A DNA stretch of 64,000 bases from Chryseobacterium sp. (GTDB lineage: Bacteria; Bacteroidota; Bacteroidia; Flavobacteriales; Weeksellaceae). Positions 53,655 through 57,590 of this stretch are shown piece after piece; positions within the stretch are counted from its first letter, which is position 1; the number at the start of each line of letters is the position of its first letter. The position numbers were made by a program, and so were the translations under genes. The notes under the pieces were generated by a model. That model was not told the origin of the DNA. It saw only the letters and a list, made by a program, of their open reading frames with translations, and did no database searches. The stretch covers positions 766,627 to 830,626 of the forward strand of contig NZ_VOXE01000001.1 of NCBI RefSeq assembly GCF_008014695.1. The letters are read 5' to 3'.

Positions 53655-54000
53655 TCTAACATCTTGCGAAGCCATCGGAGAAACCTCCAATGTCCCAAAC
53701 ATTCTGCGGGAGCCATCGGAGAAACCTCCAACGCCTCAAACATTTTGCGGGAGCCATCGGAGAAACCTCCAATGTCCCAAACATTCTGCGGGAGCCATCG
53801 GAGAGACCTCCAACGCCTCAAACATTTTGCGGGAGCCATCGGAGAAACCTCCAATGTCCCAAACATTCTGCGGGAGCCATCGGAGAAACCTCCAATGCCT
53901 CGAACAACTTGCGTGAGCCATCGGATAAATGCCCAACGCCTCAAACATCCTGCGGGAGCAATCGGGTAAATGCCCAACGCCTCAAACATCTTGCGGGACG
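53655..54000. repeat. Array of eight 41-bp units, two alternating variants
   Basis: Units begin at 53673, 53714, 53755, 53796, 53837, 53878, 53919 and about 53960, exactly 41 nt apart, with a partial unit before the first. Units 1, 3 and 5 carry one variant of the central part, units 2 and 4 the other (AATGTCCCAAACATTC against AACGCCTCAAACATTT). Unit 6 is a hybrid, and units 7-8 share a GATAAATGCCC or GGTAAATGCCC change. All three forward frames stay open, because the unit has no stop, so it looks non-coding. Each unit contains GGAG-AAAC-CTCC, a small hairpin. Confidence 0.9.
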
Positions 54001-54017: not shown

Positions 54018-54042
54018 AAAGCCGGAGAACATCTCCGGCTTT
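54018..54042 (-). terminator. Terminator of the hppA-ompA fusion gene
   Basis: The stem AAAGCCGGAGA/TCTCCGGCTTT (54018-54028 with 54032-54042) with a 3-nt loop is preceded by A residues on the plus strand, giving T residues on the minus strand. It lies 24 nt past the hppA stop and directly after the 41-bp array. Confidence 0.85.
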
Positions 54043-54065: not shown

Positions 54066-56822
54066 TTAAAAGTTCAGAACTCGAACATCAATCCTTCTGT
54101 TCTGAGCCATACACTCATCGGTATCATTCGCGGCACAAACCGGGAACTGCGATCCGTAACCTTCGGCCTCAATCCGGTCGCCGGCGATTCCGAGTTCCAG
54201 GAGTTTCAGTTTGGCCGTCTGTGCCCTTAAGCTTGAAAGTTTCAGGTTGGTGTCCTCATTTCCGGTATTGTCGGTATAACCTCCGAGTTTTATTCTCATT
54301 GTCGGATAAGCAGTCATCATTTCTGCAAGATTGTTCAGCGGCGTCTCGGAACCCATTTTCAGGTCGCTGCTTCCGCTTCTGAAATAAAGATTTTCAAGCG
54401 TGTACCACGAATTTGTATCCAATACTGTTTTATCCTGAAGTTGAACTCCCTGATAAAGATGATAAAGTTGGCTTCCTTTGCCCAGTGCAATCGATTTGTT
54501 GTTGAGTTTCACTTCCTGCATTTCTCCGGTTTCGTAAACAAAATCACCATCTTCATTCAGATGTCCTTTTACTGCAGTGTTTGCAATGGAATCTGAAGTT
54601 CCGAGGTTCATTCCTGTTACAGCATTTACATCAGTTCCATAACCCGCAGCTGAGGAGGAGTGTTTCAACAGACTTTCGATTTTAGCCGCTCTGTTGGCTT
54701 CAATCTGATCTTTATGCATGATGGCCAAAGTTGGTGCAATCACCAAAGAAACAATGGACATCAGTTTGATGAGGATATTCATCGACGGTCCGGAAGTATC
54801 CTTGAAAGGATCTCCCACCGTATCTCCTGTTACTGAAGCTTTGTGAGGTTCGGAACCTTTGTAATAGGTTTCTCCGTTGATTTCGGCGCCTTTTTCGAAG
54901 GATTTTTTAGCGTTATCCCACGCACCGCCGGCATTGTTCTGAAACATTCCCATCAGAACACCACAAACCGTAGCTCCAGCCAGGAATCCTCCCAATACTT
55001 CAGGTCCGAAAATAAATCCTACCAAAAGCGGTGAAACAATAGCGATGGCTCCCGGCAAAAGCATTTTTTTAATGGAAGCATCCGTGGAGATGGCTACACA
55101 TTTTTCATATTCAGGAACGGCTTTTCCTTCCAGAATTCCAGGGATTTCGCGGAACTGACGTCTCACTTCTTCCACCATGGCCATAGCAGCCTGTCCCACT
55201 GCGGTAATCGCCAGCGATGAGAAGATGAAAGGAATCATTCCTCCCACAAAAAGTCCGGCCAGAACATCGGCGCGGTAAATATCAATTCCGTCGATTCCTG
55301 CGATTCCTACGAAAGCCGCAAACAACGCCAATGCAGTTAAAGCTGCGGAAGCGATGGCAAAACCTTTTCCGGAAGCAGCAGTAGTATTTCCAACAGCATC
55401 CAGAATATCCGTTCTTTCGCGCACTTCTTTCGGAAGTTCGCTCATTTCAGCAATTCCGCCTGCATTATCTGCAATCGGGCCAAAAGCATCAATCGCCAAC
55501 TGCATGGCAGTAGTGGCCATCATTCCGGCAGCTGCAATCGCAACTCCGTAAAGACCGGCGCAGAGATACGATCCGTAAATCCCGCCTGCTAAAACCAAAA
55601 TCGGGAGTAAAGTGGATTCCATACCTACTGCAAGTCCGCCGATGATATTGGTGGCGTGACCGGTAGAAGACTGTTTGATGATACTTTTTACGGGTCTCTT
55701 ACCCATTGCGGTATAATATTCTGTAATGATACTCATGAGTGTTCCCACGACAAGACCCACCATGATCGCACCGAATACACCCATTTTGGTGAATTCAAAA
55801 TCCCGCAGAACCATTGTGTCCGGCAAAAGATAATTTACCAAGAAGTAAGAAGAAATAGCAGTAAGGACAATACTTCCCCAGTTTCCTAAATTCAAGGCAT
55901 TCTGTACTCTAGAAGTATCCAGATCTGAATCTTCACTGATTTTCACGAAAAATGTGGCGATGATCGAGTAAATAATTCCAGTTCCAGCAATAAGCATCGG
56001 GAGTAGAATCGGTGCAAAACCACCGAAAGCATCGTTTGAAAAAGTTTCTCGTCCCAAAACCATTGTGGCGAGAACCGTTGCGACATAAGAACCGAATAAA
56101 TCCGCTCCCATTCCGGCAACATCACCCACATTGTCTCCTACGTTGTCAGCAATCGTGGCTGGATTTCTTGGATCGTCTTCCGGAATTCCGGCTTCCACTT
56201 TTCCAACGAGATCAGCGCCTACGTCGGCAGCTTTGGTATAAATTCCGCCGCCTACTCTTGCAAAAAGGGCAATGGATTCGGCACCCAGTGAAAATCCGGT
56301 AAGGATTTCGATGGCTTTTTCCATTTCATGGGTATCCACCCCTGAATGCGGTGCAAAAACCTGTTTGATGATGAGATACACCGATCCCAAACCGAGGACC
56401 GCCAGACCTGCAACACCCATTCCCATTACGGAACCTCCGGTAAAAGAGACTTTAAGGGCTTTTGATAGCGATGTTTTGGCGGCTTCTGCGGTTCTGACAT
56501 TGGATTTTGTAGCGATTTTCATCCCGATAAATCCGGCTAAAGCGGAGAGGAAAGCTCCCACAACAAATGACAAACCGATTGACCAGTGGGAATTGGCGTT
56601 TGAGGCGCCCATAATACCCAGCAACACAGCAACAATTACCACGAAATACATCATGATTTTGTATTCCGCCTTCAGGAATGCCATTGCGCCGTCAGCAATA
56701 TGTCCGCTGATTTCTTTCATCCGGTCACTGCCTGCATTCTGCTTGCTCACCCACGCGCTTTGCACGAAAGTATAGATCAATGCAATAACCCCAAAAACCG
56801 GCACTAAATAAAATAAGTCCAT
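54066..56822 (-). CDS. hppA: Membrane pyrophosphatase fused to a C-terminal OmpA-like domain
   Basis: The 918-residue protein couples pyrophosphate hydrolysis to cation transport across the inner membrane. Residues 1 to about 710 form the 16-helix pump, with [37 protein letters not shown], and GNTTAA at 478-483 (Ala482 fits the K+-dependent group). A Glu in GAESIALF (E182) and DLFGSY (no Glu there) fit the Flavobacterium johnsoniae-type subgroup. A linker of about 75 residues leads to an OmpA-like domain: [22 protein letters not shown] with Asp851, [12 protein letters not shown] with Arg866, and [11 protein letters not shown]. Asp and Arg lie 15 apart, as in Acinetobacter OmpA (D271/R286), where they bind peptidoglycan diaminopimelate. 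Family topology puts this end in the periplasm. Confidence 0.92.
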
Positions 56823-56925: not shown

Positions 56926-56958
56926 AAAAAGCAGGTAAAAATATTTTACCTGCTTTTT
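56926..56958 (-). terminator. Terminator between ppa and hppA
   Basis: A perfect 15-nt stem (56926-56940 with 56944-56958, core GCAGGTAAAA/TTTTACCTGC) with a 3-nt loop and A/T flanks ends the ppa transcript on the minus strand. hppA therefore needs its own promoter; TATATTTA (7/8) lies upstream of its start. Confidence 0.85.
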
Positions 56959-56978: not shown

Positions 56979-57590
56979 TTAGCCGCCGAACTTGCTGGCA
57001 TAATCTTCCTGAGAAGCCAATATCACTTTCTTGGCGTGTTCGGAACCGTACACTTCCTCAATTCTGCATTTTGCAGGCTCGTCCGGAAGATTTTTGTAGG
57101 TTAAGAAGTAATGCATTAATCGTTTTACTTCCGCCTGCGGCAGTTCTGTAATATCTCTAAAATGCCCGAATGCGTGATCGCCTTTCATTACGGCAACAAT
57201 TTTGTCATCGGCTTCACCTTTGTCGATCATTTTAAAACCACCAATTGGGATGGCTTCCATGAGCATTCCTCCTGAGTGGATGTTATGCGAACTCAGTACA
57301 CAAATATCAAGTGGATCCAAATCTCCCGTCATTACATCGGTTGCACCTCTTTCAATTGCTAGTTTCAGGACTTCATCATGACAGTAGGTTCTCGGGATAA
57401 ATCCGTAAAGCGCAGGAATAATATTTGAAAACTGCTGCGGACGATCAACTTTAAGATAACCACTTTGTTTATCGATTTCATATTTGATCGTATCACTCGG
57501 CACAATTTCCACAAAAACATTTACAACATCCGGAGCCTCCTCACCTGCTGAAATTCCGTGCCATGGGTGGGCTTTAAAATTTGGTATCAT
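56979..57590 (-). CDS. ppa: Soluble inorganic pyrophosphatase (family I)
   Basis: The 203-residue cytoplasmic enzyme hydrolyses pyrophosphate to phosphate with Mg2+. The signature is GDLDPLDICVL (the DxDxxD metal motif near residue 90); further markers are IKYEIDKQSGYLKVDR, IPALYGFIPRTYCHDE and DDKIVAVMKGDHAFGHFRDI. It lies 28 nt after the DUF7935-like gene in the same direction and may share the radC transcript. Just past its terminator comes the membrane pyrophosphatase gene. Confidence 0.93.
   Translation of the reverse strand: MIPNFKAHPWHGISAGEEAPDVVNVFVEIVPSDTIKYEIDKQSGYLKVDRPQQFSNIIPALYGFIPRTYCHDEVLKLAIERGATDVMTGDLDPLDICVLSSHNIHSGGMLMEAIPIGGFKMIDKGEADDKIVAVMKGDHAFGHFRDITELPQAEVKRLMHYFLTYKNLPDEPAKCRIEEVYGSEHAKKVILASQEDYASKFGG

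Follow-up and report, generated by a model that had tools for sequence, protein, structure and literature searches.

A membrane pyrophosphatase with a C-terminal OmpA domain in Chryseobacterium, and the varied tails of related pumps in Bacteroidota

The window analysed here, a stretch of 64,000 nucleotides from the genome of Chryseobacterium sp. (NCBI RefSeq assembly GCF_008014695.1, contig NZ_VOXE01000001.1, positions 766,627 to 830,626), encodes a membrane pyrophosphatase (mPPase) that runs on, in a single frame, into an OmpA domain. The fusion of a complete mPPase and an OmpA domain is confirmed. On the evidence of the sequence we consider it rather probable that the OmpA domain tethers the pump to the cell wall through residues D851 and R866, and that the gene is one carrier of a mobile module of Bacteroidota; wall binding, tethering and any benefit that the cell may draw from them are what we infer from the features described below.

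The fused gene and its parts

The gene and its subdivisions are as follows.

54066..56822, minus strand: fused gene, mPPase plus predicted periplasmic OmpA module; single open frame, 918 amino acids (aa), 96.5 kDa
54738..56789, minus strand: mPPase core, residues 12-695; Pfam PF03030, profile positions 1-645 of 645
54588..54722, minus strand: fast-evolving linker, residues 701-745, from pairwise comparison of 11 genes
54408..54587, minus strand: segment before the OmpA domain, residues 746-805, partly common to proteins in which a DUF937 domain, a transmembrane (TM) helix and OmpA follow one another
54114..54386, minus strand: OmpA domain, residues 813-903; PF00691, profile positions 1-92 of 98
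54270..54272, minus strand: codon of D851 (D271 of Acinetobacter OmpA by register), from codon reading and alignment
54225..54227, minus strand: codon of R866 (R286 of Acinetobacter OmpA by register), from codon reading and alignment

The pump part matches the Pfam family H_PPase (PF03030) at residues 12-695 with 903.6 bits over the whole profile, and this full-length match, together with the conserved Asp/Lys motifs, makes the protein a member of the mPPase family; the residues invariant across 88 aligned mPPases include the Asp-rich motifs and were mapped to positions of the window protein. OmpA (PF00691) is matched at residues 813-903, in the frame of the pump, with 49.4 bits against a cut-off of 27.2. 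NCBIfam models place the pump at residues 3-713 and OmpA-type matches within residues 793-917; the model name "sodium-translocating" is a label on many mPPase models. No hydrophobic segment was found after residue 705, where the highest Kyte-Doolittle mean over 19 residues is 0.56. An earlier sequence-only reading of this DNA had proposed a full OmpA domain in frame behind the pump core, and the one 918-aa frame with its Pfam and NCBIfam matches bears this out. The gene is the single PF03030 match in the genome of 2.77 Mb.

By sequence, the tail belongs to the OmpA C-terminal (OmpA-C) domains, with a profile score above the cut-off and an Asp/Arg pair 15 residues apart. A search of PDB sequences returned OmpA-type domains, namely 2lbt (Rv0899, E 1.6e-15), 2k1s (YiaD, 2.4e-15), 3td3 (Acinetobacter Omp38, 8.8e-10) and 6top (9.8e-10), and the OmpA relatives matched by the tail include MotB, MotY and YfiB. 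The pair itself had been likened in the sequence-only reading to D271 and R286 of Acinetobacter OmpA; the codons of D851 and R866 were indeed read where expected, 15 residues apart, and the correspondence follows from the register of the aligned ranges (tail residues 112-213 to chain residues 16-117) rather than from a displayed alignment. Both columns are invariant in 19 aligned fused pumps, the window's included, and equivalents of both residues occur in 59 of 59 aligned OmpA modules from all partners, in rows that were chosen by hand; one decayed tail, L082, is excluded from both counts. D271 and R286 are required for diaminopimelate binding by Acinetobacter OmpA (PMC6572160), and the OmpA-C domain of Porphyromonas PorE was crystallised with a peptidoglycan fragment (PMC7192894).

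Among 11 fused genes of the Weeksellaceae, the family of the window, mean pairwise protein identity is 0.92 in the core, 0.51 in the linker, 0.56 in the segment and 0.80 in the OmpA domain. The ratio of nonsynonymous to synonymous substitution rates (dN/dS), which is rough here as many pairs approach saturation at synonymous positions, amounts to 0.03-0.06 for residues 806-918 in 3 of 5 pairs where dS was computable and to 0.01-0.02 for the pump core in the same comparison, and reaches 0.10-0.35 in the five pairs shown for linker residues 701-745 (mean identity 0.514 over pairs of the 11 genes). The OmpA domain is plainly under purifying selection, and the linker is far less constrained.

To assign the pump to a subtype, residues E182, G244, A248, A482 and G485 were read out. 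E182 aligns with S235 of the Vigna enzyme and stands seven residues before R189 (R242 of Vigna), which we take to be position 5.50, placing E182 at 5.43; G244 and A248 are likewise taken as 6.53 and 6.57, and A482 and G485 as 12.46 and 12.49, on the registers of TM6 and TM12. With these assignments the pump has the residues of the K+-dependent subtype with Glu at 5.43, that is, Glu at 5.43, none at 6.53 or 6.57, and Ala at 12.46; the Lys at 12.46 of K+-insensitive pumps is replaced by A482. The same pattern is given for the K+-dependent H+-PPase of Flavobacterium johnsoniae in a table of PMC6882861, and the residue tables of PMC6882861 and PMC10897367 fit the window pump as a K+-dependent, F. 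johnsoniae-like H+-pumping type. We therefore regard it as a predicted K+-dependent, probably H+-pumping mPPase, which differs from the F. johnsoniae type in its OmpA tail; none of the fetched Flavobacteriaceae-like (f2) pumps has such a tail.

Distribution of the fusion and of other tails

The order was sampled with 148 genomes, 20 of them from the family of the window. Within this family the full fusion is present in all 15 genomes with an mPPase (3 of the window's genus and 12 of a second genus), and no PF03030 match was found in the five genomes of a third genus. All 15 matches running through the OmpA domain in the order sample are confined to this one family, and of 33 pump loci taken from the order's other families none has OmpA on the pump. 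The check that the sequence-only reading had proposed, a survey of OmpA-bearing HppA homologues, thus came out in its favour, in that the fusion does not occur in nearly all Flavobacteriia. Among named genomes, the relatives within the window's clade are Chryseobacterium (L135, L137), a Flavobacteriaceae metagenome-assembled genome (MAG; L138) has an OmpA-fused pump, and further carriers are Taibaiella helva, a Chitinophagaceae MAG, UBA2364 and a MAG labelled Phycisphaerales. The last of these (L134) has its fused mPPase on a 9-kb contig, with a core that groups with Taibaiella; it may be misbinned or transferred and is not counted as a planctomycete case.

In a class sample of 295 genomes, the module was found on an mPPase in 7 at E <= 1e-28, a threshold that would miss more divergent mPPase-borne modules. 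The matches listed from other classes of the phylum are mostly frames of about 690-745 aa; three of the eight pumps fetched from these classes are OmpA-fused (L286, L287 and L288) and the remaining five (L289-L292, L296) have tails of 0-40 aa. The tail of L288 consists of BON plus OmpA, and L286 and L132 have the same module. A fusion universal in the class or the order is rejected by the order-sample, class-sample and fetched-locus counts alike.

The fusion of OmpA and mPPase as such is already known from Burkholderiales, where OmpA-like C-terminal domains were noted on mPPases of Paucibacter and other members, with their role left open (PMC11210485). The architecture is the same as in the window gene, an mPPase followed by a C-terminal OmpA domain, whereas the Burkholderiales case is a predicted K+-insensitive pump of 810 aa, together with a handful of related entries, and the window gene encodes a K+-dependent type of 918 aa in Bacteroidota. 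A term search of that paper found neither "Flavobacteri" nor "Bacteroidetes", and PMC4602150 names an mPPase and an OmpA protein on different clones. Among the papers listed by literature searches, in which subscription papers were mostly not covered, none deals by title or abstract with YceI- or FKBP-tailed mPPases (no search was aimed at FKBP) or with OmpA-bearing SecDF or oxidase subunit IV.

Long periplasmic tails are frequent in Bacteroidia and rare among the sampled pumps from other groups, and their content has been exchanged. This pattern of varied mPPase tails, which seems to be new, was drawn from 131 loci of Bacteroidia genomes (130 with an mPPase) and 80 loci of named genomes, giving 210 classified rows with one duplicate (L001 = L002). 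By rules of our own, tails with 6 or more Cys were called Cys-rich and tails shorter than 50 aa were called none; the rows then divide into 21 OmpA, 23 YceI, 3 FKBP, 42 Cys-rich, 42 other tails of at least 50 aa and 79 in the class none. Pfam recognised YceI in 22, OmpA in 12, and FKBP_C and FKBP_N in 3 of 101 Bacteroidia tails of at least 60 aa. In the 90 Bacteroidia mPPases of the class sample, which are the better-scoring part of the 295-genome draw and not a random subset, tails reach at least 60 aa in 67 and at least 20 aa in 88; the 67 longer ones comprise 34 Cys-rich, 22 YceI, 7 OmpA (the decayed L082 among them), 2 FKBP and 2 others. For named Bacteroidota, the corresponding figures among the matches listed are 27 and 57 of 59, with 32 of 59 in the class none, so that long tails are less frequent in this set.

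Outside Bacteroidota, as judged by title, 20 of 21 named loci (three of them without a phylum assignment) have tails of 0-38 aa, the exception being the doubtful L134. The class of a genome titled Gammaproteobacteria has an mPPase in 155 of 274 genomes, and eight pumps from the longest frames listed there have C-terminal tails of 0-4 aa, with their extra length on the N-terminal side. The short tails outside Bacteroidota show that a long tail is not a general feature of mPPases, and the YceI, FKBP and Cys-rich tails rule out OmpA as the only fusion at this spot. The sequence-only reading had held that the majority of H+-PPases stop soon after their final helix, which is true of nearly all sampled pumps outside Bacteroidota but not of Bacteroidia, where 88 of 90 tails have at least 20 aa.

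On an unrooted FastTree of 205 pump cores, from which the duplicate and four short rows were excluded, the six tail classes require at least 52 changes; taken singly, OmpA needs 7 (6 forced by well-supported branches) and YceI 15 (10 forced), where these changes, like the label changes reported below, count gains and losses alike. Even in one GTDB family (f29) the six members fetched include three pumps of the class none, two with FKBP and one with YceI. The mPPases with a C-terminal FKBP-type prolyl isomerase are L053, L055 and L114. The Cys-rich tails of L012, L037, L054, L068, L072 and L113 share a recurring motif like CDMxKCxxMTKEECAxxCDxxGC and may bind metal; Pfam gave no match over the cut-off for seven unnamed or Cys-rich tails, L012 and L113 among them. 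In four genomes of family f44 (G258, G116, G205 and G177) the mPPase matches contain one internal stop codon.

Origins of the module and its other carriers

The mPPase-borne OmpA modules have more than one origin. For the module tree, 59 rows were chosen from a larger set of OmpA hits, L082 being excluded, and eight long-branch rows were dropped to leave 51 modules; on the resulting tree the label "on an mPPase" must change 9 times, with 7 of the changes forced, and a single change suffices in 0 of 200 bootstrap trees. A single clade of mPPase-borne modules is rejected (approximately unbiased test, p = 1.4e-5), its log-likelihood being 132.5 lower. Several pump modules are sister to the module of another protein in the same genome, on cytochrome c oxidase subunit IV (COX IV) in G118 (100/98), on a lipoprotein in G436 (99/94) and on a DUF937 protein in G434 (96/93), and genus g13 has a comparable case across genomes, in which the SecDF modules of four members are sister to the pump module of a fifth, G184 (97/92). 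These groupings are best accounted for by local capture or gene conversion.

The Weeksellaceae modules, including that of the window, form one clade (100/99), and the group nearest to them unites the pump of the Flavobacteriaceae MAG L138 with a predicted lipoprotein, L232 (99/83). The pump cores of the Weeksellaceae group with Chitinophagaceae cores (97* in a 30-row set), apart from Flavobacteriaceae cores. Given this grouping and the absence of the gene from the family's third genus, horizontal transfer of the pump into an ancestor of the Weeksellaceae lineage is likely on the unrooted FastTree.

Within its own genome, the window tail has its closest relative in L213, a protein composed of DUF937, one membrane helix, the segment and OmpA, with 38% identity over tail residues 43-215, starting at residue 743 of the fused protein. 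As in the window gene, a related segment and OmpA stand behind a TM helix, here on a single-helix carrier. The genome also has a YiaD-like OmpA lipoprotein-like gene (L214). In G118, another genome with an OmpA-fused pump, the nearest relative is a COX4_pro protein, the prokaryotic subunit IV of cytochrome c oxidase (E 7.5e-13), that bears the same module.

L277:5362-6300, minus strand: cytochrome c oxidase subunit IV plus OmpA module, from Pfam, in one genome

Two COX3 genes and a UbiA-family gene precede it on the same strand, which makes this a real oxidase gene cluster. Inside SecDF, the module occurs in four members of a single GTDB genus (g13 of f10; L257, L259, L260 and L261); Pfam places it after the first P1 segment and ahead of the P1 head in L257 and L260, with L259 and L261 judged by sequence; the P1 region of SecDF is periplasmic. 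DUF937 proteins, single-helix proteins and a predicted lipoprotein are the other carriers, and near five single-TM carriers no respiratory genes were recognised by eye from the first 70 residues. Among known systems, MotB, Pal and PorE of the type IX secretion system (PMC7192894) resemble the window tail in being OmpA-C by sequence with the D/R pair; their carriers are a motor stator or lipoproteins, whereas that of the window is a many-helix primary ion pump.

Wall attachment, its alternatives and the neighbouring genes

A wall tether is the natural reading of the window gene because an OmpA domain with the contact pair stands at a terminus expected in the periplasm and is kept by purifying selection. 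The sequence-only reading, which had proposed that the domain might tether the pump or place it at growth sites, is thus supported in part, for the tether; it did not include the other fusions at this spot or the related modules on further envelope proteins. The C-terminus of solved mPPases is periplasmic, the enzyme is a homodimer, and YceI, FKBP, OmpA and BON domains are mostly extracytoplasmic in Gram-negatives; from these we infer a periplasmic C-terminus for the window pump, which the YceI, FKBP, BON and OmpA tails of its relatives fit. MotB offers a parallel as an inner-membrane ion-channel partner tied to the wall. The flexible linker of about 45 residues and the short segment could let the OmpA domain of the pump reach the wall, where D851 and R866 would clasp diaminopimelate as in Acinetobacter OmpA (PMC6572160) and PorE (PMC7192894), and two such domains per homodimer would hold the pump in place. 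We read the window fusion as one instance of a mobile OmpA module found on several envelope proteins of Bacteroidota, among them the energy machines mPPase, COX IV and SecDF.

More tentatively, the module may have been captured repeatedly by machines of the proton-motive force, fixing energy conversion and export to the wall, with the mPPase C-terminus as a general docking site; this broader proposal strikes us as possible but well short of probable. The usual picture of a primary ion pump has it drifting freely in the membrane. If the proposal is true, some bacteria fix energy machines (pump, oxidase and SecDF) in place relative to the wall.

Several observations weigh against a tether. Wall tethering is no general need of the pump, because 83 of the 90 class-sample pumps are without OmpA and many have unlike tails. 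In L082 (genome G154) the anchor is dispensable, since the OmpA domain has decayed there, with the TDNTG motif lost and a Pfam score below the cut-off. The donor to the Weeksellaceae pump need not have been an inner-membrane protein and may have been a lipoprotein, perhaps of the outer membrane, because the nearest non-pump relative, L232, is a predicted lipoprotein; such a relative counts against a strictly inner-membrane-borne module. Finally, OmpA domains serve also as protein-protein hubs, as in YfiB.

The alternative that survives best, which we rate somewhat below an even chance, is that the free periplasmic C-terminus accepts nearly any export-competent domain and that the pump is a mere inner-membrane anchor for cargo. 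The unlike tails (YceI, OmpA, FKBP, Cys-rich and unnamed) at one site speak for it, as do the many tail-class changes on the 205 cores and the OmpA modules on DUF937-TM proteins, a lipoprotein and single-TM proteins, whereas a possible bias towards energy machines is hinted at by COX IV and SecDF as carriers. The range of tails at one site is natural evidence for a periplasmic, cargo-accepting C-terminus of mPPases, which would be useful for imaging or engineering these pumps.

It is unlikely, in our estimate, that the OmpA domain acts as a regulator or docking hub that senses the envelope or binds a partner and so alters pump activity, in the manner of MotB or YfiB. Its position on a flexible linker beside an ion pump, and the presence of MotB, MotY and YfiB among the matched relatives, would suit such a role; the peptidoglycan-contact residues are nevertheless fully kept in the aligned rows, and the soluble pyrophosphatase (PPase) gene, the sole neighbour examined, adjoins the pump in only part of the loci. 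Release of the tail by proteolysis as a free periplasmic peptidoglycan-binding protein, with the pump as its delivery vehicle, appears very improbable, for although the linker evolves fast, no conserved cleavage motif was seen by eye in the linker alignment, and the genome already has L214. An assembly or annotation artefact is ruled out for practical purposes, the same fusion recurring in all 15 pump-bearing genomes of the family, in several of them within one contig.

The features next to the fused gene are as follows.

56979..57590, minus strand: gene for a soluble inorganic pyrophosphatase, immediately upstream of the pump and on its strand
56926..56958, minus strand: hairpin and T-run in the gap that separates the soluble PPase and pump genes, from a hairpin scan
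54018..54042, minus strand: terminator-like hairpin right after the pump stop codon, from sequence reading; the scan puts it on the plus strand

Of the 11 fused loci of Weeksellaceae, 10 have the soluble PPase gene next to the pump; over all 210 rows the number is 27, many of them Flavobacteriaceae, a count limited by the flanks fetched; this adjacency makes neighbours of a dissipating and an energy-conserving PPase. The hairpin and T-run between the two genes suggest that they are transcribed separately. The terminator-like hairpin behind the pump is weak, since chance predicts 4.3 such sites and the scan found 5. A tandem array (53658-53998) of about 8 copies of a 41-bp unit with 87% matches separates the pump gene from an M28 peptidase gene; a 23-base core of this unit has 6 genomic occurrences when as many as 2 mismatches are allowed, and all of them fall inside the array.
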